Shown here piece after piece: positions 30,890-52,355 of a DNA stretch of 64,000 bases. Positions within the stretch are counted from its first letter, which is position 1, and each line of letters begins with the position of its first letter. Below the pieces are notes generated by a model, which saw nothing but the letters and a program-made list of their open reading frames with translations, searched no databases and was not told the DNA's origin. A program made the position numbers and the translations under genes. Source of the DNA: Arcobacter roscoffensis (GTDB taxonomy: Bacteria > Campylobacterota > Campylobacteria > Campylobacterales > Arcobacteraceae); assembly GCF_024267655.1 (NCBI RefSeq), contig NZ_CP100595.1, positions 434,001 to 498,000 of the forward strand, given 5' to 3'.

Positions 30890-32380
30890 TTAGTTATAAG
30901 AAGTTTTATCTTCTAAATTTTTAGTTGACTCTGGATTATATAAACCTTTTTTTTCAGCTTCTTTTTTCCACTCTTGCATTAAACCTTTTTGGAATTTTTT
31001 CTTATCCTCAACAAGTTTTTCAAATGGTAAACCAATGATTTCTTGTGCTTGTTTTTTATCTTTAATTTCAGGTGCTACATAATCACTTGCTCCATATTTA
31101 GCTAATACTTTAGCTAATTTTATTCTAGCATTTCCTGCTTTTTCTATAGATGTACCTAATATCTTTAATGTTTCTTCTGGTGCATGGAAGAAAGCAGGGT
31201 GTGAAGCTACTGCATAGTCCCATCTCCATTGAGCGTGTCTTATGTCTTTTAGTATAGGTGCCATCTCTTCTTTTGTTGCTCCAATTTCCCAAGCTTTTCC
31301 AGCTTCTAAGTGAGCATTTGCAATAGCTGTCATAGCTTTTTGGTGTAAATTATCTTTTCTTTCTCTCTTTTTATTAATATTATCTAAAAGAGATTTTTCA
31401 CTTGTTCTATGACAATTCATACAAGATTTATCCATATTTTCAAGTGGGTTCCCAATATTATGGTCTGTATATTTTATACCACCTTCTTGAGTGTAAGGCA
31501 TGTGACAATCTGCACAAGAAACATTATTTCTTCCATGTGCTCCTGTTTCCCACATTTCCCAACCAGGATGTTGTGCTTTTAACATTGGTGCTTTAGATAT
31601 TTTATGAGTCCAATCTTTAAACTCTAAATTATCATAATATTTTTCCATTGACTCTACTGAAGTTCCCTCACCCCATGGTAAAGTAACAACTGCAGCTTTT
31701 TTGCCATCAGCAAGAGGTGTTTTTTTGAAGTAGTATTCAACATGACATTGAGCACAAACCATTGATCTCATATCTTGTTGAGTTGCATCCTCTAAAGGTT
31801 TTTTCCCTGCTGCTTTAAGACCTGTATTTAAATATTCTCTATTTACTTGTAGCTCCATTGTTTTTGGATTGTGACAGTCAACACATCCAATAGGATTTAT
31901 AATATCAGAACCATATTTAGACCACTTACCAGTAAAGTACTCCATATCACCTTCTTTATCCATTATTCTTGGAACATCAGGCGATTTACAAGTCCAACAT
32001 GCTGTTGGCATAGGTCCTGTTTTTTCATCAACAGGAGCACCTGTTCTTAATGTGTTTCTATTATCTTCTATGGCATAAAAGTGCCCTCTTGGAGCATTAT
32101 AATCTTTTGCAAAACCATATCCTGCCCATAAAACTACGAGTTCAGGATGTTTTTTCAGCATATCTTCTATTTCATCAGAGTGTTTTGTTTCTTTCCAAGA
32201 ATCAAATTGTCTTGGATAGTGTTTTTTAAACTCTTCATTTTTTGTTTCCCATCTATCAATTTTGGGTACTTCTTTTAATTGTGCTTGTTCTACTTTTTTT
32301 TCATTAATTGAAGCTATTAACGCAGACATTAAACCAATTGCTATTATACTTATAACAAGTAGTATTTTGTATTTTTTCAT
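30890..32380 (-). CDS. nrfA: Ammonia-forming cytochrome c nitrite reductase
   Basis: A 496-residue periplasmic pentahaem enzyme with an N-terminal hydrophobic signal (about 5-22). The active-site haem motif is the lysine-ligated CWTCK, followed by four CxxCH sites: CVDCH, CAQCH, CADCH and CMNCH. It reduces nitrite to ammonium with six electrons from NrfH. Together with the Nap genes it makes the full nitrate-to-ammonium pathway. It starts 9 bp after nrfH. Confidence 0.97.
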   Translation of the reverse strand: MKKYKILLVISIIAIGLMSALIASINEKKVEQAQLKEVPKIDRWETKNEEFKKHYPRQFDSWKETKHSDEIEDMLKKHPELVVLWAGYGFAKDYNAPRGHFYAIEDNRNTLRTGAPVDEKTGPMPTACWTCKSPDVPRIMDKEGDMEYFTGKWSKYGSDIINPIGCVDCHNPKTMELQVNREYLNTGLKAAGKKPLEDATQQDMRSMVCAQCHVEYYFKKTPLADGKKAAVVTLPWGEGTSVESMEKYYDNLEFKDWTHKISKAPMLKAQHPGWEMWETGAHGRNNVSCADCHMPYTQEGGIKYTDHNIGNPLENMDKSCMNCHRTSEKSLLDNINKKRERKDNLHQKAMTAIANAHLEAGKAWEIGATKEEMAPILKDIRHAQWRWDYAVASHPAFFHAPEETLKILGTSIEKAGNARIKLAKVLAKYGASDYVAPEIKDKKQAQEIIGLPFEKLVEDKKKFQKGLMQEWKKEAEKKGLYNPESTKNLEDKTSYN

Positions 32381-32389
32381 AACGAACCT

Positions 32390-32932
32390 CTATTTCATTT
32401 GTTCTTTAATTCCAAGATTGTATGGAGTTGAAATTAAACTTCTAACTTTTCCATGTGGCACGTATTTGTGACACTCCCAACATTTCCTACTATTTTCAAG
32501 ACTTCCTTCTTCTACATTGTGATATTTGTCAGCATTTATTTTTAGTGTCGCATTTTCACTTGCATGACATCTAACACAATTTGCTTGCACACGGCTTGCT
32601 CCATCTTCACCTATTTGAATATTATTCTTATAGGTATTTAGAGTGAATGCAACAGAGTGATTCCACCCATCTATTGCTTTAGCTTGATATTTAGCTATAG
32701 CATCCCCTACAGGTAGGTGACAATCAATACATCCTGCAACATTTTTATGTGAACTTTTTTCCCAAGTAGCATAAGCTGAATTCATTGTGTGACAATTGAT
32801 ACAGGCTTTGGGGTCACTTGATAAATATGACAGCATATTTGATGCATAAACAGTGTAAACAAAAAGAGAAGTGGCAATAAGAAGACTTAAAACTGAGCCA
32901 TAAATTACAACTTTCTGATTTTTTTTCATCAA
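32390..32932 (-). CDS. nrfH: NrfH, NapC/NirT-family tetrahaem quinol dehydrogenase
   Basis: A 180-residue membrane-anchored cytochrome with one N-terminal helix (about 8-30) and four haem motifs: CINCH, CIDCH, CVRCH and CWECH. It takes electrons from menaquinol and passes them to NrfA. It is first in the nrfHA unit, with an FNR-like box and TATAAT upstream. Confidence 0.95.
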   Translation of the reverse strand: MMKKNQKVVIYGSVLSLLIATSLFVYTVYASNMLSYLSSDPKACINCHTMNSAYATWEKSSHKNVAGCIDCHLPVGDAIAKYQAKAIDGWNHSVAFTLNTYKNNIQIGEDGASRVQANCVRCHASENATLKINADKYHNVEEGSLENSRKCWECHKYVPHGKVRSLISTPYNLGIKEQMK

Positions 32933-32954: not shown

Positions 32955-33015
32955 ATTATAAAATTTATATTTTTTTAAAATCTTGATTTAGGTCAAGAGT
33001 ATGAATAGCTATTCA
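32955..33015 (-). promoter_or_regulatory. nrfHA promoter with FNR-like box and upstream palindrome
   Basis: The minus-strand TATAAT is at 32955-32960 and a start near 32948 is predicted. TTGAT-TTAG-GTCAA (32983-32996) is centred at about -41.5, the class II position for CRP/FNR activators. A perfect 14-bp palindrome, TGAATAGCTATTCA (33002-33015), is centred at about -60.5 and may bind a second regulator. Confidence 0.75.
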
Positions 33016-33668: not shown

Positions 33669-34121
33669 TTAGTTTATCTTTTCATAAATCACTTTTCTAA
33701 CATAATCATTTGTTTTTAGTCTTAATTTATCATATTTGATCTGGTATTCTAGTTTTTTTTCAAAAGTAATAGGAGTTCTAAGTGATTTATATTCAACTAA
33801 TTTATTTTCTTTATGTACACCAGATATTTCTGCATAAACCCAATAAAATCCTTGATCTTTTCTAAGATTTTTTATATATCCACTCCATTTAGTATTTTTT
33901 TGTAAACTTTCCCATAGCTCTTTAAATACTGTTTTAGGCATATCAGGATGTCTTACTATATTGTGATGCTCGCCAATTAATTCATCAGCTTCATAACCTG
34001 AGATTTGAGCAAAGGTATCATTTACATAAGTAATAATACCTTTTAAATCTGTTCTTGATACAATAATTTCATTTTTAGGAACGATAGTTTCACATAAAAA
34101 ATGACTTGAGTTATATTGCAT
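33669..34121 (-). CDS. CetB/Aer-like single PAS-domain energy-taxis protein
   Basis: About 150 residues. The start at 34121 (MQYNSSHF) is chosen over 34142 because AGGAG sits 6 bp upstream and it avoids a 20-bp overlap with napD. The protein is one PAS domain with the Aer/CetB signature: SRTDLKGIITYVNDTF, GYEADELIGEHHNIVRHPDMP, LWESLQKNTKWSGYIKNLRKD. In Campylobacter CetB a similar PAS protein binds FAD and signals through the CetA receptor. Its position at the end of the nap operon suggests redox sensing during nitrate respiration. No output domain is present. Confidence 0.78.
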   Translation of the reverse strand: MQYNSSHFLCETIVPKNEIIVSRTDLKGIITYVNDTFAQISGYEADELIGEHHNIVRHPDMPKTVFKELWESLQKNTKWSGYIKNLRKDQGFYWVYAEISGVHKENKLVEYKSLRTPITFEKKLEYQIKYDKLRLKTNDYVRKVIYEKIN

Positions 34122-34122
34122 A

Positions 34123-34509
34123 TTATTCTCCTGTATTATCAAATACTTTTGTAAATCCTATTAAGTCTTTTCTTTTTAAGTCACCATTATAAACTATATC
34201 TTTTGGATCAATGTCTTTTTCATTTAGAATTTTTGGAACAGCTTCTGCGTTATTAAGTACTTCTAGGTGTGAACTTAACTCTTCTTCACTATAGGCCATT
34301 TGCATATCAGCACTTGCTACATGAGGGATACTTTCAATAACTTTTAACTTTTTTAGTTCCTCTTCAACATTTTCACCTTCAATTGTGATAATTACTTTTC
34401 CTGATTCATCATGCATATGATAATCACATGCCTCACATTTTTTTAATGATTCCACAACTTCATCTATATACTTTGGTAATGTTTGTACTACAATACTTGA
34501 AATATTCAT
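34123..34509 (-). CDS. napD: NapD-like maturation chaperone
   Basis: A 128-residue protein. The first ~85 residues have the NapD ferredoxin-like fold (ISSIVVQTLPKYIDEVVESL, GKVIITIEGEN, IESIPHVASADMQMAYSEEE). NapD binds the Tat signal of NapA and aids its maturation before export. The 40-residue C-terminal tail is longer than in E. coli NapD (about 87 residues). It is 3 bp after napL. Confidence 0.85.
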   Translation of the reverse strand: MNISSIVVQTLPKYIDEVVESLKKCEACDYHMHDESGKVIITIEGENVEEELKKLKVIESIPHVASADMQMAYSEEELSSHLEVLNNAEAVPKILNEKDIDPKDIVYNGDLKRKDLIGFTKVFDNTGE

Positions 34510-34512
34510 ATC

Positions 34513-35472
34513 TTACTCCTTAATTTTATAATAGTTTATTTTTTTGTCATCACTTGATATAAAAAGCTCTTTTTCATTGATAAAAAGAATTTTTGAAATA
34601 ATTGCTAGATTTTCAATTAGTTTAAATTTCTTTATCTTACTTTTTGTATCAAAAATTAAAACATTGTTTTCTTCATCATAAGCTATGCCTACTTTTTTAC
34701 CACTTGGGCTTAGTCCTACACTATAAATCAAAAATGGTGCATTTATATATTGTGCTTTATTGTTTAACTCATCATAAATAACAGCTCTTCTATCTTGTCC
34801 TGCTGTTGCTATAATATTGTTTTTTGTATCAACTTGAAAAACATTATCTAGATTCTGATTTTTAAATTCTTTAATTACTTGAAGGTTATCTGTGTTTAGC
34901 ATTTTTAAAATACCACTTTCATCAGCAACAATAACACTTTTTTTATTTTCATTTAAAACAAAATCAGAAAACTTTGATAAGGATACATCTACTTTTAGAA
35001 CTTTTTTCTTTGATTTTATATCATATATATAAAGTTCATTTGATAGTAATGAAAAAATCATTCTATTTTCATCTAAAAACTTTGCTTTTGCAATGAACAT
35101 TCTTTTTTTATCTGAGATAATAGTTGTGAATTTACCATTTTCATAAATAGTTAAATTCCTTCCACCTTTTTCACCTTGTGAAACACTTAGAATTTTATCT
35201 TTTAATATATCTATACTATATATTTTTGAATTAACTATATCCCCCATAAAATCTTTAATTTTAGGGAATAGAATAGTTGAAACTTTTTGTTTTGTTTGTA
35301 TATTAAATATATCTATGCTTGAAGCATCACTAGCGGCATAAATCTTATTTTCTTTAACTATAAGTTCAGTTACAGCTCCACTTGCTTCATATTGAAATAA
35401 AGGTTTTATTTCATTTGCATTTAAAGTAGTAAGTAGAAAAGTTAAAAAGAAAAAAAACTTATTCATATGCAA
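34513..35472 (-). CDS. napL: NapL-like periplasmic beta-propeller protein
   Basis: A 319-residue protein with a signal peptide (ends about LNA, residue 18). The rest is beta-propeller-like with WD40/YVTN-type repeats (SSIDIFNIQTKQ, LYIYDIKSKKKVLKVD, AGQDRRAVIYDEL, NVLIFDTKSKIKK). NapL occurs in the nap clusters of Campylobacterota between napF and napD; its role is not firmly known, with a helper function in Nap assembly suggested. Confidence 0.85.
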   Translation of the reverse strand: MHMNKFFFFLTFLLTTLNANEIKPLFQYEASGAVTELIVKENKIYAASDASSIDIFNIQTKQKVSTILFPKIKDFMGDIVNSKIYSIDILKDKILSVSQGEKGGRNLTIYENGKFTTIISDKKRMFIAKAKFLDENRMIFSLLSNELYIYDIKSKKKVLKVDVSLSKFSDFVLNENKKSVIVADESGILKMLNTDNLQVIKEFKNQNLDNVFQVDTKNNIIATAGQDRRAVIYDELNNKAQYINAPFLIYSVGLSPSGKKVGIAYDEENNVLIFDTKSKIKKFKLIENLAIISKILFINEKELFISSDDKKINYYKIKE

Positions 35473-35480
35473 GCCCTTTT

Positions 35481-35960
35481 TTATATTATTTTAATTGCAC
35501 TTGTAGGACAATATTTAATACAATATCCACAAGAAGTACAGTTTTCATTTATTTCAGGTCTAAACATTGCTAGAAAATCAATAGCATCATCTAAACATGG
35601 GTCTTTACATGAAAAACACATTGTTTGATTCCAACTTAAACAAGATAATGGATCAATCTCAATTTTAACAGCTATATTTTTTTTATCTTCGATATTTAAG
35701 ACTTCATGTTCACAGGCATTTGCACACTCATCACAATAGGTACAACCACTATTTTCAAAACTAATAGCTGGCGTTTCATTTTCTAATATTAAAATTATAT
35801 TTTCTTCACAAACAGTACTACATTTTTTATCACTACATTCAATACAGTTTGTTAAAAAAACTTCTTTATTTCTAAAATAAGGAGGTCTTATAATTTTCTC
35901 TTGCTTTTCTTTTTTTGTAAAAGATGAAGCAAGAGAACTAAAAAGTTCTCTTCTTTTCAT
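35481..35960 (-). CDS. napF: NapF-like ferredoxin protein
   Basis: A 159-residue cytoplasmic iron-sulfur protein with an MKRRELFSSLASSF start. Several Cys clusters fit [4Fe-4S] binding: CIECSDKKCSTVC, CTYCDECANAC, CFSCKDPC and CTSCGYCIKYCP. NapF is thought to act in the cytoplasm in NapA cofactor insertion or electron supply. It sits 8 bp before napL and 1 bp after napB. Confidence 0.88.
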   Translation of the reverse strand: MKRRELFSSLASSFTKKEKQEKIIRPPYFRNKEVFLTNCIECSDKKCSTVCEENIILILENETPAISFENSGCTYCDECANACEHEVLNIEDKKNIAVKIEIDPLSCLSWNQTMCFSCKDPCLDDAIDFLAMFRPEINENCTSCGYCIKYCPTSAIKII

Positions 35961-35961
35961 A

Positions 35962-36567
35962 TTATTTTACACCTTCATTAATTGTATCAATTAAGTTAGA
36001 TTTTTCATTAAGTCCTTTGCTTCTAAATTCAGCTTGGAATTCATTTTTAGGAACAAGGTTTCCTTCTGATTGTGGAGCATGACATTGTGAACAGTTAAAT
36101 CTTGAACCTGATAATGTATGAAGTTCTTTACTTACTGTTTTTAAATCACTTGTATTTTCTACTATTTTACCTTCTTTAACTATTTTACCATTCTTAGCTA
36201 AAGATGTTTCTGGTCTAAAGTCTGTAAAGTGAGACTTAGGAATTGGTGTTGCTCCCATAGACTGTGCTATTGCAGGCTCATGGCAAGCTGTACATTGATT
36301 ATTATTAATAGTAATTGGTAACATTCCTTCAACACTGTGAGGAATCATTGGAGGAGCATTTTCAAAAGCTCTTTCAATCTTAGTACTTGTTCCTGCTGGT
36401 TTGTCAGAATATTTTGTTTTATCACCTGTTGTATTAGATTCTGTGTATAAATCTGTTTTTCTTAAACCTAACGACTCTTCACTTACTGTTTTATTTGCTG
36501 TTGCACACCCTACAGTAAATATTGCTGCAGCAGCTATGATTGCTATTGTTACTTTACTGAACTTCAT
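35962..36567 (-). CDS. napB: NapB, dihaem electron-transfer subunit of periplasmic nitrate reductase
   Basis: A 201-residue periplasmic cytochrome with two haem motifs, CTACH and CSQCH, and distal His candidates. It passes electrons to NapA. The N-terminus has a signal region ending FTVGCATAN, which looks partly like a lipobox but has Thr at -3; lipid anchoring is therefore uncertain. The gene overlaps napH by 14 bp. Confidence 0.93.
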   Translation of the reverse strand: MKFSKVTIAIIAAAAIFTVGCATANKTVSEESLGLRKTDLYTESNTTGDKTKYSDKPAGTSTKIERAFENAPPMIPHSVEGMLPITINNNQCTACHEPAIAQSMGATPIPKSHFTDFRPETSLAKNGKIVKEGKIVENTSDLKTVSKELHTLSGSRFNCSQCHAPQSEGNLVPKNEFQAEFRSKGLNEKSNLIDTINEGVK

Positions 36568-37384
36568 TTTCTCTTTCCTTTATTAATTTTCTTATGGAAA
36601 AGTTTAGTGAATCATCATCACACACTTCAACACATCTTCCACAGTTTGTACATTCAGCTCCCATTATAGGTGCTGATTCTTTTGTAATAATATGTAAAAC
36701 ATGGCTTTCAGGACAAACCTCTTTACATTTCATACAAGCTGTACAAGCCTCATGATTATGATGAACTTTAAAAAAACTAAACCTTCCTATTTGTGAATAA
36801 ACACCACCTAAAGGACAAATATGTCCACACCATCCATTTTTTAAAACGAATAAGTCAAAAAGAAATATTACTAATATTGTTGCCCAACCAAAACCAAGAC
36901 CAAAGATAATTCCTCTATGTACCATTGAAATAGGAGAAATCAATTCAAATGCTGCTACACCCATAAAAAATGAAATTATAAAACTAATTGCAATAAGCCA
37001 ATATCTTATATTTTTTGAAGCAGGTTGCTTTTTTTGAATCTGATTAAAACCTAATTTTCTTCTAAGAAAATTAGCTAAGTCTGTAATCATATTTACAGGA
37101 CAAACCCAAGAACAAAAAGCTCTTCCTCCAATTATCATATAAAATAAAATGATTAAGAAAGCTCCTAAAATAATGTCAAATGAAATAGTGGCACCAGCCA
37201 CAAACATTTGCATTACTGCATAAGGATCACTTAAAGGAACTAATTCTAAAACGAGTGAACTACTTAAATTTCCCATTAAGATATTTATTCCATATACATT
37301 AGCAATAATATATAAAACCATTATTGTAATTTGTGTGATTCTTCTAGCAATAAGAAATCTATATTTTTTTATTAAAGTTTTCAT
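36554..37384 (-). CDS. napH: NapH, membrane quinol-oxidising subunit
   Basis: A 276-residue protein with four or five membrane helices. It has two CxxxCP motifs (CSWVCPVN, CGHICPLG) and two C-terminal [4Fe-4S] sites (CTACMKCKEVCPE, CTNCGRCVEVCDD). With NapG it forms a menaquinol dehydrogenase, replacing NapC, and feeds NapB/NapA. It overlaps napG by 1 bp. Confidence 0.94.
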   Translation of the reverse strand: MKTLIKKYRFLIARRITQITIMVLYIIANVYGINILMGNLSSSLVLELVPLSDPYAVMQMFVAGATISFDIILGAFLIILFYMIIGGRAFCSWVCPVNMITDLANFLRRKLGFNQIQKKQPASKNIRYWLIAISFIISFFMGVAAFELISPISMVHRGIIFGLGFGWATILVIFLFDLFVLKNGWCGHICPLGGVYSQIGRFSFFKVHHNHEACTACMKCKEVCPESHVLHIITKESAPIMGAECTNCGRCVEVCDDDSLNFSIRKLIKERENEVQ

Positions 37385-38187
37385 TAATATAAATCCTCCA
37401 TACCGCTATTTAAAGAATCAAGTGCTGACTTTTCATTTATGCCTGTTGTATTTTTTTTACTTGTAGCATTTTCAAGTCTTTTCTCATCATTCTTATCCCA
37501 GCCTTTGATGTAGTAATCACCTGCTTTTCCTAAAGCTGTTTCTCTATGAAGAACAAAGATAGCTGCTTTTTGGGTAACACAAGCTTTTTCACATAAGCCA
37601 CAACCTGTACATACATCTGCATGAACAACTGGCTTTAAAAATGCATGTTTTCCGGTTCTTTCATTTTTTGTATATTCAACACTTATTGCTTCACCAAGTA
37701 AAGGGCAAGCTCTATAACAAGCATCACATTGAATACCCCAAAATGCTATACAACTATTATCATCAATAACTGCAACACCCATTCTAGATTTATTAATATC
37801 TAGTTCATTTTTCTCATTTTTTACAGAATTTAAATTAAGTGCATCTGTAGGACAAACAGGTACACAAGGAATATCTGTACACATATAACAAGGAATATCT
37901 CTTGGTTCAAAGTATGGTGTTCCAAGAGGCTTGTTATCACCTGGTTTTGCTAGTCTTAAAGTATCAAAAGGACATGCTTCAACACACATACCACATTTTA
38001 TACAAGTTGCAAGAAAATCATCTTCTTTTAAAGCCCCAGGTGGTCTTAGTATAAGCTGTGAAGCTTTTACTTCATCTACATAGGCACTCCAAGTAAGACC
38101 TCCTAATACTGCAAGACCTGTAGCTCTTGCAATATTTAGAAAAAATCTTCTCCTCTCACTAATTGGCTCTTTTTTACTAGCTTTCAT
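37384..38187 (-). CDS. napG: NapG, periplasmic iron-sulfur subunit
   Basis: A 267-residue Tat-exported ferredoxin. The twin-arginine signal is SERRRFFLNIARATG. Four [4Fe-4S] clusters are indicated by CIKCGMCVEACP, CYMCTDIPCVPVCP, CDACYRACP and CTGCGLCEKAC. It accepts electrons from NapH. Position right after napA is normal in Campylobacterota. Confidence 0.95.
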   Translation of the reverse strand: MKASKKEPISERRRFFLNIARATGLAVLGGLTWSAYVDEVKASQLILRPPGALKEDDFLATCIKCGMCVEACPFDTLRLAKPGDNKPLGTPYFEPRDIPCYMCTDIPCVPVCPTDALNLNSVKNEKNELDINKSRMGVAVIDDNSCIAFWGIQCDACYRACPLLGEAISVEYTKNERTGKHAFLKPVVHADVCTGCGLCEKACVTQKAAIFVLHRETALGKAGDYYIKGWDKNDEKRLENATSKKNTTGINEKSALDSLNSGMEDLY

Positions 38188-38205
38188 TTTTGACTCTTTT
38201 TAATT

Positions 38206-38240
38206 GAAGGATTGTATATGCTTTCAACAATACACCCTTC
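38206..38240 (-). other. Stem-loop in the napA-napG spacer
   Basis: GAAGGattGTA (from 38206) can pair with TACacCCTTC (to 38240) with a small bulge, in the 57-bp spacer after napA. It may partly end or stabilise the napA message; it lacks a T run. Confidence 0.35.
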
Positions 38241-38244
38241 TTAT

Positions 38245-41046
38245 TTATGCTTTATAAATTTTTACCGCACATTTTTTAAAGTCCGTTTGTTTTGATTGAG
38301 GACAAGTATAATCAGCACAAACTTTGTTGATAAATACTTTTTCATCAAACCAAGGAACAAATACTAAACCTTTAGATGGTCTATTTCTACCTCTTGTTTC
38401 AACTCTAGCTTTAACTCTTCCTCTTCTTGACTCAACCCAACATAAACCACCTTGTTTAACACCATATTTCTTAGCATCTTCAGGATGCATATAACATAAT
38501 GCCTCAGGTACTGCTCTGTATAGTTCAGGAACTCTCATAGTCATTGTTCCACTATGCCAGTGCTCTAGTACTCTACCCGTACTTAACCATACTGGATATT
38601 CACTATCTGGCATTTCAGGAGCATCCATATAAGGACGTGCAAAGATTTTTGCTTTATTTTTAAGTGGTGTTTTGTTTTTATCAGTAACACCTTTTAAATC
38701 ACCCTTTGGTAATGCTTTTGCTAATTTTCCATAGAAAGCAAAATCACTATTTGGATTGGCTTTTTTTGCATAAGGGTCATATTTAGTATTAAATCTCCAT
38801 TGTGTTTCTTTACCGTCAACAACTGGCCATTTAAGTCCTCTTACTCTATGGTATGTATCAAAGTCAGCTAAATCATGTGCATGACCTCTACCAAATTCTG
38901 CATACTCTTCAAATAAGTATTTTTGAATAAAGAACCCATAACCTTTCCATGGTTTACCATCTGAACCAATTACATTTCTTGAATCTCCAAAACCATCAGT
39001 ATTATCATATCCTGCTTGAATTTCGTCATCTTGTGATAGTTTGTAAGATTTTGCTTTCTCATTTGCAAATAAGATGTCATACATAGTAGTATTCTCATCG
39101 TATCCCATTTTAGAAGCTTCAGCTCTTACATCTGCTAATTTTTTACCATTTCTAAGAGTATATTCACCCCATAAATCTTTTACTGTAAATCTTTTTGAAA
39201 GTTCAACCCATTGCCATGTATCAGACATAGAATCACCTACAGGCAATACTTGTTGTCTCCAATGTTGTGTTCTTCTTTCAGCATTTCCATAAGCTCCCCA
39301 TTTTTCATAAATCATAGCAGATGGTAAAATAAGGTCAGAAACTTTTGCTGAGATACCTGGGTATCCATCAGAAGTTACAATAAAGTTATCCATTTTTCTT
39401 GCTGCTTTAATCCAGTGAGATGCACTTGCTGTATCTTGATAAGGGTTACATACATTTACCCATGCAAATTTAACAACACCATCTTCAATATCTCTATGAA
39501 TTTTCATAATATGTTGATTTCCAACAGGATTTAATGTACCTTTTGGAATCTTCCATGAGTTTTCAGTGATTTTTCTATGTTTAGGATTTTTTACCATCAT
39601 ATCAGCTGGAAGTCTATGCGTAAATGTACCTACTTCTCTTGCAGTACCACAAGCAGATGGTTGACCTGTAAGTGAGAATGCACCAGAACCTGGTTTTGCT
39701 TGTTTATTTAATAAGAAGTGAACATTGTATGCTAAAGTATTTACCCACGTACCTCTTGTATGTTGGTTCATACCCATTGTCCAAAATGATACTACTTTTC
39801 TATTTTTTTCAATATATAAATCTGCTAATTCTTTGATTTTTTTCATAAACACTTCATCAGATTCATCAGGATCACCTTTTGAAACTTGTGTTGTATATTC
39901 AGCTGTATATGGTTCTAAGAATTTTTTGTATTCATCAAAAGAAATTTCCCAGTGTTTTAATCCAGCTGGTTTATTTACCATCTTATCCCCAGCTTTGTAA
40001 CCATAAGGTTTAAGTGCAGGAGCTTCATCTTCTGAAACGATTTTTTCCATTTCTTTAGAAATAGTTTCCATTTCTTTATCTGTATATTTACCTTCTTTGA
40101 TTGATTTTTCATCAGATCTTCTCATCCCATAACCCATATTAACAGGACTTGCTGCAAATACAATATGTTCTTTAACAAAGTCCCAATCAATTGCTTCAGG
40201 ATGGTTATATACGATTTCTCTTGCAATATAGTTCCATAAAGCTAAGTCTGAATTAGGTTTGAAAATTATTTCAATATCAGCTATATCAGAAGTTCTATGT
40301 CTATATGTAGATAAGTTTACAATTTTTACTTTTTTAGGATCAGATAGTTTTCTATCCGTAACTCTTGACCATAAAATAGGGTGCATTTCTGCCATATTTG
40401 AACCCCATGTAACAACTGTATCAGTTAGTTCAATATCATCATAACATCCAGATGGCTCATCAATACCAAAAGTTTGATAAAAACCAACAACCGCAGAAGC
40501 CATACAATGTCTTGCATTTGGATCAATAGCATTTGATCTAAATCCAGCTTTCATCATTTTTTGTGCAGCATAACCTTCTTGAACTGTATATTGTCCAGAA
40601 GCAAATACACCTACACCTTCAGGACCTTTTTCTTTTAAAGCTTTTTTGATGTGAACTTCCATCTCATCAAATGCTCTTTCCCAAGAAATAGGAGCGAAAT
40701 TTCCATCTTTATCAAACTCACCTTTAGCATTAACTCTTAATAAAGGTTGTTTTAATCTATCAGCACCATACATAATTTTGGCATTAAAGTATCCTTTAAT
40801 ACAATTAAGACCTCTATTTACAGGAGCTGCAGGATCCCCTTTTACTGCAACAATTTTACCGTTTTTAGTTGCAAGCATAATCCCACAACCAGTACCACAA
40901 AATCTACAAGCTGCTTTATCCCATCTCCAGCCACCTTGTGCTGCATCTGCTTTAGCCTGTAATTCCATTGGTACACTCATACCAACTGCTGCTGCTGCTG
41001 ATGCTGCTGCAGAGCTTTTTAGGAAATCTCTTCTTGAAAGCGACAT
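38245..41046 (-). CDS. napA: NapA, catalytic molybdenum subunit of periplasmic nitrate reductase
   Basis: A 933-residue molybdopterin enzyme. It has a Tat signal ([16 protein letters not shown]), an N-terminal [4Fe-4S] site ([10 protein letters not shown] and a later Cys in GLNCIKGY) and the Mo-ligand Cys in [10 protein letters not shown]. It reduces nitrate to nitrite in the periplasm with bis-MGD cofactor. moaA, which serves molybdopterin synthesis, is also in the window (53421). The gene starts the nap operon. Confidence 0.98.
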
Positions 41047-41081: not shown

Positions 41082-41123
41082 ATTGTAACAATAATGTAAG
41101 CTAAAGAAATTGACCCATGTCAA
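41082..41123 (-). promoter_or_regulatory. napA promoter with FNR-like box
   Basis: TTGAC-CCAT-GTCAA (41110-41123) is a perfect inverted repeat of the FNR/CRP type. The minus-strand TACAAT at 41082-41087 predicts a start near 41075, so the box is centred at -41.5, the class II activator position. The same arrangement is seen before nrfH. An AAGGAG ribosome site precedes the ATG. Confidence 0.78.
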
Positions 41124-48597: not shown

Positions 48598-49614
48598 TTA
48601 TCTAATTGGTGCTCCATACTGTAAACCACCATCAGTCCAAAGTTTATTTAAACCTCTATCAATTTTAAGTGGAGAGTTAGCCCCAACATTTCTTTCAAAT
48701 GATTCTCCATAATTTCCAACATTTTTAATAATGTTATATGCCCATTTTGCATCTAAACCTAAGTTTTCACCAGCTTTTCCTGATTCTCCTAAGATTCTTT
48801 TAATACCTGGATTTTTAGATTTTAACATTGAGTCTACATTTGCTTGAGTGATTCCAAACTCTTCTGCATTAAGCATTGCAATATGCGACCATTTTACGAT
48901 ATTAAACCATTTATCATCACCTTGTCTTACAACAGGTCCTAATGGCTCTTTTGAAATAATTTCAGGAAGTACTTTTACAGAATTTGGATCTTTTACTTTT
49001 AATACTAAACCATAAAGTTGTGAAGCATCAGAAGTTACAACATCACATCTTCCAGATTTAAATCCTTCAATAGTTTGACCAGATGTATCGTAAGTGATTG
49101 GTTTATAAGTCATTTTGTTAGCTTTAAAGTAGTCAGTTAAGTTAAGCTCAGTTGTAGTTCCTGCTTGAATACAAACTGTAGCACCATCTAACTCTTTTGC
49201 TGAATTTACACCAATATCCTTGTTGATTAAGAAACCTTGACCATCTTAGTAGTTTACACCAGCAAAGTTAAGACCTAAAGATGTATCTCTTGTATTAGTC
49301 CAAGTAGTTGATCTAGATAATAAATCGATTTCACCACTTTGTAATGCCGTAAATCTCTCTTTAGCAGTTAAAGCTACATACTTAACCTTTGATGGATCAC
49401 CAAAAACAGCAGATGCAACAGCTTTACACATATCAACATCTAAACCTTTCCATTGTCCACTAGAATCAGTTGCAGAAAAACCAGCAATACCAGTAGATAC
49501 ACCACAATTTAAAACACCTTTTTTCTTAACAGAATCTAATGTATCTGCTGTAGAAACACTTGCTAATAAAGCTACCGATGCTATACTTAATGAAGCAGTT
49601 TTTAAAAATCTCAT
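48598..49614 (-). pseudogene. aapJ: AapJ-type amino-acid-binding protein gene with one in-frame stop
   Basis: In one continuous frame this encodes a 338-codon periplasmic binding protein with a signal peptide (about residues 1-23). KGVLNCGVSTGIAGFSATD, ERFTALQSGEIDLLSRSTTWT, CIQAGTTTELNLTDYF and EGFKSGRCDVVTSDASQLYG are typical of AapJ/BztA, which binds Glu/Asp and other L-amino acids. A single TAA (minus strand, 49246-49248) interrupts the gene after GVNY, where the family usually has a second Tyr (YYDGQGF). No frameshift is seen and the rest is intact, ending in GLQYGAPIR. The downstream permease and ATPase genes are intact. This is a recent nonsense mutation, a read-through site or a sequence error. 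Confidence 0.85.
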
Positions 49615-50698: not shown

Positions 50699-50727
50699 TG
50701 CAAAACTCTATATTAATGAGTTTTGCA
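50699..50727 (-). terminator. Perfect hairpin at the end of the PilJ-domain gene
   Basis: TGCAAAACTC and GAGTTTTGCA form a 10-bp stem around a 9-nt loop and include the stop codon at 50713-50715. No T run follows on the minus strand, so it may stabilise the message end rather than terminate. Confidence 0.4.
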
Positions 50728-51693
50728 GTTGTTTATTAAAGAGTCCAATTGTTTTTTTAATTCTTGAAGTTTTTTTGATGAATTGATTAGTTCTTCTTGT
50801 GATTCAATAACCATATCTTCACTTTTGTTTAATTGCTGTGATGAGATATTTGTATTATTGTTAAGTTCATCAAGAATTTCATCAAATTCATTTGTGATTT
50901 CTTCAAGTTTTTTTGAAGCGCTACTTGAGTATTCAACGGCTGAATTCACTTTATTTATAAAACAGTTAATTGTATCTGTTGCTTCAACAATCTCTTTTTC
51001 TGCTTCAATCTTAATAGGAACTAAAGGTTCATTCCCTTCACTTTGAACAACTTTCTTTGAATACTCTAAGAACTTCTTAGCATTTACTTCCATTTTTTTT
51101 AATTGAGAGAAACTATATATGATTAGGAATATTATGATTAACGCAAAGACATATTGCATATATTGTATGTATTGAGATTTTCCTTCTGTATATGTTGTAT
51201 ACATTGATACAAGTTTATCAACTTCTTCCAAAAGATGATTGTTTGTTTTATAAATAGTATTAACAATACTTTTTAATTCTTTTTCATTATTTAAATCTCT
51301 TTTTAAAGATAACTCTTTAAATCTATTTATATTGTTATAAAAGTTATTCCATAAAATCTCAACTTTTGAAATTTGTGAAGCAATTTCATCTGTGGGAGCT
51401 TTAAAAATACCAATTAGCTTATTACCATCTTTTAATGAATTCAGATTATAAATAAACTCTAAAGTTGCACTATCTAATTCTGTAAAAGAATAGGCATTAT
51501 TATGATATAAATAAAAAATATTTTTAGAAATCTTTTGCGTTAACATTCTTTCTTTACCCGCAATGTTAATTACTAAGGCATCTTTTTTATTTTTATCACT
51601 TAAGTAAACAGTAGTTGCAATAATTATAGTCATCAATATAATAAATAAAATACCTATGACTCTTATTTTTCTTCCGATTGTATTTTGGTTCAT
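50713..51693 (-). CDS. PilJ-domain membrane sensor without recognised output domain
   Basis: A 326-residue protein with two membrane helices (about 10-31 and 180-202) flanking a periplasmic helical domain. The start of that domain, VINIAGKERMLTQKISKN, matches the PilJ/NarX-type P-box, which senses nitrate or nitrite in NarX. The cytoplasmic part is a coiled coil rich in Ser/Asn/Glu; it lacks the MCP hairpin tip, histidine kinase and GGDEF domains. It overlaps the Crp/Fnr regulator gene by 4 bp, so the two are translated together. It may regulate by protein contact. Confidence 0.78.
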   Translation of the reverse strand: MNQNTIGRKIRVIGILFIILMTIIIATTVYLSDKNKKDALVINIAGKERMLTQKISKNIFYLYHNNAYSFTELDSATLEFIYNLNSLKDGNKLIGIFKAPTDEIASQISKVEILWNNFYNNINRFKELSLKRDLNNEKELKSIVNTIYKTNNHLLEEVDKLVSMYTTYTEGKSQYIQYMQYVFALIIIFLIIYSFSQLKKMEVNAKKFLEYSKKVVQSEGNEPLVPIKIEAEKEIVEATDTINCFINKVNSAVEYSSSASKKLEEITNEFDEILDELNNNTNISSQQLNKSEDMVIESQEELINSSKKLQELKKQLDSLINNCKTH

Positions 51694-52355
51694 ACTCCTA
51701 CTCCTCTAAAAGTAGATGTTAATTCTTCTTTATTTATGATTTTCACTTTTCCGCTTTCTATTTCTATAGTTTCATTTCTAACTAGTCTTTTTAGTACTCT
51801 AGATAGAGTTTCAGGTTGAATATGTAACATGAATGAGACTTCTTGTCTTTTTAATTTATTAAACATTTCAAGGTCTTGGTTAAGCATAAAAGCAACTTTT
51901 GCAGTTGCGTCAAATACAAGTTCTCTATTTACAATACATTGTAACTGATGGGTTTTTTCTAAAAGAATTTCCATTAAATCCATAGTTAAAATATTTTTTG
52001 ATAAAAAAAGTTCTTGAAACTTTTTAAAGTCAATTGATAAAATAGTTGAATCTTCTGTGAACTCTGCATTTGAAAAACAGTAAATTTCATCATTTCTTAA
52101 TGAAATTAGTTCAGAAATCATTGAGTTCTCATAGATATGATATAAAAAAATATCATTGTCAAATTTATCAACTTTATATATTTTAATTAAACCTTTTACT
52201 AAAAAAAGTAAATTATTTAAAGAATCACTTTCATAGTATAAAATGGAGTCTTTTGGGTAGTTTATTACATTTGAAATAGATGACATTTCATCAATTTGTT
52301 CATCGCTTAAACTATTAAAAAAACTTATTTTTGAGATGGTTTCTTGTATTCTCAA
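51690..52355 (-). CDS. Crp/Fnr-family regulator with FNR-like recognition helix
   Basis: A 221-residue regulator with a cNMP-binding-type beta-barrel (about 15-120), dimer helix and winged helix-turn-helix. The recognition helix QPETLSRVLKRL has the E..SR pattern that FNR uses to read TTGA half-sites. The N-terminal Cys set of the FNR iron-sulfur cluster is absent, so it is not a classic oxygen sensor. FNR-like boxes TTGAY-N4-GTCAA lie before napA and nrfH. It and the PilJ sensor may control those operons. In other Campylobacterota NssR and similar Crp/Fnr proteins control nitrosative or nitrogen-oxide responses. Confidence 0.85.
   Translation of the reverse strand: MRIQETISKISFFNSLSDEQIDEMSSISNVINYPKDSILYYESDSLNNLLFLVKGLIKIYKVDKFDNDIFLYHIYENSMISELISLRNDEIYCFSNAEFTEDSTILSIDFKKFQELFLSKNILTMDLMEILLEKTHQLQCIVNRELVFDATAKVAFMLNQDLEMFNKLKRQEVSFMLHIQPETLSRVLKRLVRNETIEIESGKVKIINKEELTSTFRGVGV

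Follow-up and report, generated by a model that had tools for sequence, protein, structure and literature searches.

An orthologue of the Wolinella succinogenes transcription factor NssA is encoded in the 64,000-nucleotide stretch of Arcobacter roscoffensis DNA analyzed here (contig NZ_CP100595.1, positions 434,001 to 498,000; hereafter the window) together with a membrane-bound PilJ protein that carries a putative nitrate-binding motif, and this neighboring gene probably encodes the missing sensor that tells NssA of nitrate. Taken singly, regulator, PilJ nitrate receptor, and operator all belong to known kinds; their combination, with an output-less nitrate receptor translationally coupled to an Nss regulator, appears to be new. 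In W. succinogenes, NssA mediates the induction of nap and nrf (Kern and Simon 2016, as cited in PMC6682613, PMC8139620, and PMC11539149), which respond to nitrate and not to nitrite (PMC8139620), and the NO response is handled by a separate regulator, NssB (PMC6682613, PMC8139620). Campylobacterota are not known to possess an orthologue of NarP (PMC6682613), and according to a 2021 review, how Nss factors sense nitrate needs further study (PMC8139620). These papers treat NssA alone, leave the sensing step open, and do not mention an adjacent sensor (PMC6682613, PMC8139620, PMC11539149). The sensor described below is a concrete, order-wide candidate for how NssA-type regulators perceive nitrate. 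An earlier, sequence-only reading of the window knew of no described pair of this kind; the regulator is known already as NssA, but we did not find the pairing described in the open-access literature (a search that does not extend to the original Nss study, Kern and Simon 2016, in which the neighboring gene may have been noticed before).

The gene pair and the architecture of the sensor

The pair comprises the following features, all on the minus strand:

51690 to 52355: Crp/Fnr-superfamily regulator of 221 residues, NssA orthologue (Pfam PF00027 and PF13545)
51783 to 51815: recognition helix of the regulator, PETLSRVLKRL; its core is invariant in the alignment and the same in DNR of Pseudomonas aeruginosa
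51690 to 51693: ATGA overlap of regulator stop and sensor start, read from the sequence
50713 to 51693: orphan PilJ membrane sensor of 326 residues (PF13675), consisting of TM1, a PilJ four-helix bundle, TM2, and a cytoplasmic coiled coil
51598 to 51666: sensor TM1, about residues 10-32 (hydropathy)
51535 to 51570: putative nitrate-binding N-box INIAGKERMLTQ, residues 42-53 (alignment to McpN 6gcv, definition in PMC6381276, and conservation counts)
51094 to 51171: sensor TM2, about residues 175-200 (hydropathy)
50716 to 51093: predicted cytoplasmic coiled coil of the sensor, about 125 residues, with no known output domain in Pfam and NCBIfam scans
50737 to 50823: C-terminal sensor motif SEDxxIxSxEEL...L..L...L, candidate regulator-contact site, conserved from Arcobacter to Wolinella

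The regulator gene starts with TTG (52355 to 51690) and encodes a cNMP-binding fold and an HTH_Crp_2 domain (Pfam scan), and the PilJ domain of the sensor was matched at residues 30-123 (PF13675, E=1.5e-16). These matches and the ATGA at 51690-51693 bear out the sequence-only reading, which had proposed a Crp/Fnr regulator overlapping by 4 bp with, and coupled to, an orphan PilJ sensor. That reading had also described the sensor as devoid of kinase, MCP, or GGDEF output, and no such domain scored above the cut-off in Pfam or NCBIfam; a cryptic output of these three types was therefore ruled out. The same scans found no histidine kinase domains in the sensor, and its partner is the Crp/Fnr protein, not a response regulator. 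The MCP domain (PF00015) matched the coil with E=0.18 and a score of 12.1 bits, well short of the 34.6-bit cut-off, and no MCP tip was recognized.

The AlphaFold2 (AF2) model of the sensor superimposes on McpN with a Z score of 18.1 over 124 residues (23% identity) and, with the membrane part included, on NarQ with a Z score of 14.5 over 217 residues. Its coil helices (residues 233-286 and 293-325) were modeled with low confidence, and the regulator model is poor C-terminally (pLDDT <50 at 139-182); no structural claim is drawn from the latter. The best-conserved stretch of the cytoplasmic part is the C-terminal motif, detected by pattern search in 78/83 sensors and recognizable also in the copies associated with nosZ. 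The sensors of the window, L005, and L013 have seven residues (one heptad) fewer in the coil than most relatives, with no compensating deletion further on, which may favor a parallel coiled coil over an MCP-type hairpin.

Conservation of the pair in Campylobacterales

The sensor is the sole PilJ protein in the 3.15-Mb genome and adjoins one of just two Crp-type HTH proteins encoded there, so the probability of their adjacency by chance is negligible. The survey of co-occurrence proposed by the sequence-only reading found the pair conserved. We searched 249 Campylobacterales genomes separately with a sensor profile and a regulator profile, the regulators being found without reference to the sensor; regulator-profile matches at E<=1e-50 (91) were taken as NssA-class, and adjacency was counted from coordinates. 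The sensor lies directly downstream, on the same strand, of 89/91 NssA-class regulators, which rules out chance adjacency. In the two exceptions (genomes G165 and G032), the regulator stands beside napA, and the sensor profile found no match anywhere in either genome. Regulator positions changed upon sensor loss in these two sequences outline no clear contact surface.

Among Arcobacteraceae-type loci fetched by sequence similarity, the two genes occur in the same order in 20/20 and overlap by 4 bp in 19/20, with sensor identities of 54-74% across the family; over all 88 pairs examined, duplicates included, the 4-bp overlap is found in 52. W. succinogenes NssA has the same kind of neighbor as the window regulator: 17 bp further on begins a gene whose 460-residue product is a sensor containing two PilJ domains. 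Past the pair, on the same strand and beyond one divergent gene, lies the napA cluster. Arcobacter-type sensors thus contain one PilJ domain, and Wolinella-type sensors two in tandem. In a phylum-wide draw, all of the matches listed belong to Campylobacterales, within which many napA-bearing members are without the pair. A regulator-sensor fusion protein was not seen. Two 560-residue proteins with several PilJ repeats (L093:851-2533 and L094:5333-7015, four repeats in the latter) are not linked to a Crp gene; they are flanked by related small secreted proteins.

Identity of the regulator

The window regulator shares 42.5% identity with NssA vs 31.0% with NssB and 23.8% with NssC. Genome G499 is that of W. 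succinogenes, its NrfA being 100% identical to the sequence of PDB 1fs9, and it encodes three Crp/Fnr proteins, as reported for this species (NssA, NssB, and NssC; PMC6682613). Which of them is NssA was settled by matching published identities, using homologues from genomes of family f17. Against the three Wolinella proteins, identities are, e.g., 45.2/28.6/25.5% for the nap-linked regulators of f17 and about 33/49/28% for the second regulators; the values published for the Nitrosophilus labii regulators against NssA/NssB/NssC are 44.8/29.2/26.1 (nap-linked) and 33.3/50.0/28.2 (PMC11539149). Since the profiles match, the sensor-paired Wolinella protein is NssA.

In a maximum-likelihood tree, 82 paired regulators and the 2 sensor-less ones form a single clade (100/100, stem of 1.08 changes per column), which includes W. 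succinogenes NssA and excludes NssB, NssC, and the other Crp protein encoded in the genome of the window (in L003), itself of NssB type (45.7% identity to NssB). Judged by identity and tree position, the window regulator is an orthologue of W. succinogenes NssA, and on the simplest reading of the tree the pairing arose once and the sensor was then lost twice. A 2019 review describes A. butzleri as having no FNR/CRP homologue (PMC6682613); all sampled genomes of the largest sampled Arcobacteraceae genus (g2) contain at least two Nss-type Crp/Fnr matches. NssB-class regulators stand divergently beside norCB(-nirS) in L123, L125, L126, L132, and L133, which fits the published role of NssB in the NO response.

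The recognition helix of the regulator, ..QPETLSRVLKRL, has the E..SR pattern of FNR and DNR, in agreement with the FNR-like helix noted from the sequence. Also confirmed is the absence of the FNR cysteines: the window regulator contains only Cys93 and Cys140, neither invariant among the 80-odd paired relatives, and the alignment of the paired clade holds no invariant Cys or His. An FNR-type cluster is thus missing, and FNR-type oxygen sensing, which depends on four [4Fe-4S] cysteines, was ruled out. The closest solved structure by sequence is DNR of P. aeruginosa (3dkw, E=1e-11), whose recognition helix shares the IQPET-SR core. DNR uses haem to sense NO and is not known to have a partner sensor.

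The putative nitrate-binding motif

Residues 41-53 of the sensor read VINIAGKERMLTQ. The N-box, [IVL][ND]xAGxQRML[ST]Q, is the motif through which the chemoreceptor McpN binds nitrate, with Arg61 making the key bonds; nitrite is not bound by McpN, and no nitrate binding was seen for the chemoreceptor PilJ, which has PilJ domains but no N-box (PMC6381276). The alignment to McpN (6gcv) places Arg49 of the sensor at Arg61, and the window N-box departs from the consensus once, with Glu for Gln. The sequence-only reading had seen a P-box-like start as in NarX here; a putative nitrate-site motif is indeed present, but it is nearer to the McpN N-box than to the NarX P-box. PilJ domains with an N-box have been noted in transcriptional regulators, kinases, chemoreceptors, and diguanylate cyclases, with no mention of an arrangement split over two proteins (PMC6381276).

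Conservation was counted over 83 distinct paired sensors. Outside the nosZ-type paralogues, the N-box is present in 71/74 (40 strict, 31 relaxed by a conservative change); among the nosZ-type sensors it is present in 0/9, and Arg is replaced by Lys in all nine (GxxR to [NHI]xQK). The nine belong to second regulator-sensor pairs found beside nosZ in family f15 (Sulfurimonas-like), with one relative in f10 (L061, L062, L063, L064, L066, L067, L069, L070, and L072, of which L062 is not beside nosZ). The R50K variant of NarQ was, by the title of its structure entry, crystallized in the apo state (5jeq). The nosZ-type copy can serve as a natural control for the N-box: pairs that serve nap keep the nitrate residues and copies that serve nosZ replace them. 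No other sequence evidence speaks as strongly for selection of the nap-type sensor to bind nitrate. Nitrate is, on this evidence, the likely ligand of nap-type sensors. It is a likelier ligand than nitrite, because the N-box is of the McpN type, McpN does not bind nitrite, and nap and nrf of W. succinogenes do not respond to nitrite; the conservation of the N-box agrees with the induction by nitrate and not by nitrite in W. succinogenes (PMC8139620). Of the "nitrate or nitrite" pair with one sensor and one regulator suggested earlier, the nitrate role and the architecture are supported, and nitrite is the less likely ligand.

Operon context and putative Nss sites

The following features of the window, all on the minus strand, bear on the targets of the pair:

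33669 to 41046: nap cluster (napA at 38245-41046, napG, napH, napB, napF, napL, napD, and a PAS protein), likely target, identified from translations
30890 to 32932: nrfA (30890-32380) and nrfH (32390-32932), likely target; NrfA against PDB 1fs9, E=4e-202
41110 to 41123: TTGACATGGGTCAA, putative NssA/Nss site centered 70 bp upstream of napA
32983 to 32996: TTGACCTAAATCAA, putative Nss site centered 57 bp upstream of nrfH

The nap genes were named from their sequences and from what is known of nap clusters in general. Within the window, this cluster and nrfHA are 10-20 kb away from the pair, on the same strand. Elsewhere, pairs adjoin nap, nrf, nor-nir, or nos operons, directly downstream or a few genes away: nap (L013, L015, L017, L055, L056, L058-L060, L073, L074, L079-L081, L085, L087, L088, L091, and L116), norCB-nirS (L006, L008, L010, L012, and L021-L023), nosZ (L019, L020, L061, L063, L064, L066, L067, L069, L070, and L072), or nrf genes upstream of the pair (L089 and L092). 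In Arcobacteraceae, moaA and a trpD-like gene occupy the other side. No other common partner gene was found in the pair neighborhoods, and in none of the families examined was the pair seen to be accompanied by a kinase, receiver, CheW, or nucleotide cyclase gene. A PAS-domain protein directly follows napD in the window (33669-34142) and a similar one does so in other families; in L065, L068, and L071 a PAS-domain protein stands between napD and the regulator-sensor pair. At 48598-49614 of the window, the reading frame of an amino-acid ABC transporter substrate-binding gene is broken after residue 122 by a single in-frame stop; its homologue in L005 is intact (338 residues).

The published Nss consensus is TTGA-N6-TCAA (PMC11539149, citing Kern and Simon). 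We scanned about 200 bp upstream of selected genes for exact matches and took the expectation from dinucleotide shuffles. An exact site precedes napA in 16/20 loci (0.2 expected), nosZ in 9/13 (0.17 expected), and nrfH in 2/2; none was found in 22 moaA and 48 napG/napH upstream regions. The promoter of the pair itself has no TTGA-N6-TCAA in the window, and autoregulation was set aside on this ground; in relatives, exact sites occur at 6/60 regulator promoters (0.6 expected). Over the whole genome, TTGAC-N4-RTCAA occurs at 12 places, no more commonly than a reversed control pattern, and is informative by promoter placement only. Apart from those at nap and nrf, one match immediately precedes a gene for a small cytochrome c, and another is found some 230 bp upstream of ccoN. 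The recognition helix of the NssB-type regulator resembles that of NssA type, and the promoter sites are for this reason not assignable to NssA or NssB by sequence. The NssA orthology and the putative sites before napA and nrfH uphold the earlier suggestion of nap and nrf as likely targets, and the pair very probably has a role in the control of nitrate respiration or denitrification.

Comparison with known systems

W. succinogenes NssA is the closest parallel: the window regulator falls in the same clade and has the same nap/nrf context and the same TTGA-N6-TCAA sites. The sensor shares its fold and an N-box with the nitrate-contacting Gly-x-x-Arg with P. aeruginosa McpN, but McpN controls motility through its MCP output, whereas the window sensor is tied to a transcription factor. 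Like the Escherichia coli kinases NarX and NarQ, it has a PilJ domain, two TM helices, and a GxxR nitrate site (PMC8199190); unlike them, it has an N-box in place of the P-box, no NarL/NarP partner, and no DHp or ATPase domain, so no phosphorelay operates in the pair. In Thermus thermophilus, DnrS/DnrT and DrpA/DrpB combine a DNR-group Crp/Fnr regulator with a sensor-like protein in a two-gene operon for nitrate respiration, and non-phosphorelay nitrate sensing has been proposed (PMC5748679, PMC6282519). DnrS differs from the window sensor in that it is a cytoplasmic protein made up of GAF and BTAD domains, with oxygen as its presumed signal; DrpA is located in the periplasm, and a PilJ domain is mentioned for neither Drp protein (PMC5748679, PMC6282519). 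The Drp system was therefore set aside as a homologue and works alike at most.

Proposed mechanism and alternatives

We favor, with some reserve, a two-protein nitrate switch that dispenses with a phosphorelay and in which the cytoplasmic coil of the sensor controls NssA by direct contact. The sensor would be an inner-membrane protein whose PilJ domain faces the periplasm, the compartment in which the nitrate reductase Nap acts. As in McpN and NarX/NarQ, bound nitrate would span the dimer interface at the N-box (Arg49), and the resulting helix shift would run through TM2 into the coiled coil, whose conserved C-terminal segment may then control the co-translated NssA. Contact between coil and NssA is probable, and the C-terminal motif, from its conservation, would be the expected site; that the sensor controls NssA directly appears rather more plausible than not. 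Either the sensor may hold NssA until nitrate arrives, or it may convert NssA to the DNA-binding form. Free or activated NssA would bind TTGAC-N4-GTCAA-like sites and turn on nap and nrf (in relatives, nor-nir and nos).

Several observations count against this mechanism. The two sensor-less NssA-class regulators imply that the regulator can evolve away from the sensor, and many napA-bearing Campylobacterales do without the pair. No fusion was seen, the coil model is of low confidence, the window N-box has a Glu, the promoter of the pair has no site, and the sites before napA and nrfH are not assignable to NssA over NssB.

The pair could instead regulate nap and nrf in response to nitrate without contact, the sensor relaying its signal to NssA by way of an unlinked intermediary such as a kinase, a chemotaxis component, or a second messenger. 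The weak similarity of the coil to an MCP signaling domain (PF00015, E=0.18) would fit such a relay, direct contact being itself inferred; yet no MCP tip was recognized, no kinase, receiver, CheW, or cyclase gene accompanies the pair in the families examined, and the fixed neighbor of the regulator is the sensor. We regard this relay as unlikely. Less probable still is that NssA itself senses the signal in a DNR-like manner (NO, haem, or another ligand of the Crp fold), with the sensor modulating its amount, membrane location, or specificity. The relation to the NO/haem regulator DNR (3dkw, E=1e-11) and the existence of sensor-less NssA-class regulators speak for self-sensing, but the paired clade has no invariant Cys or His, the N-box is conserved in the adjacent sensor, and the reviews name nitrate, not nitrite, as inducer and assign NO to NssB (PMC6682613, PMC8139620). 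Decay of the sensor from a chemoreceptor or kinase into a truncated protein, functionless now and kept by operon structure, would account for the missing output domain but is highly improbable given the 54-74% identity of the sensor across Arcobacteraceae, its retention with the regulator from Arcobacter to Wolinella with N-box and C-terminal motif conserved, and the second pair beside nosZ.

If direct control by the sensor is right, the PilJ nitrate receptor has a further use beside kinases, chemoreceptors, and cyclases, and the pair exemplifies something rare, the control of a Crp/Fnr factor by a membrane receptor. More tentatively, the pairs could represent a new class of transmembrane signaling, from periplasmic receptor to Crp/Fnr factor by coil contact with no enzyme involved, which has been duplicated and re-aimed at other nitrogen oxides. 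The f15 nosZ-type copy, with Lys in place of the nitrate Arg, would possibly sense a non-nitrate, N2O-related signal; we know of no established bacterial sensor for such signals. In N2O consumers, the nosZ-linked copies may accordingly include a sensor for a further nitrogen oxide, and copper is another candidate signal for nosZ-type sensors. In nosZ-linked loci, a small secreted protein (about 142-158 residues, no confident Pfam family; L061:4312-4746, L067:6890-7339, and equivalents) is encoded directly upstream of the regulator and is possibly a third component.
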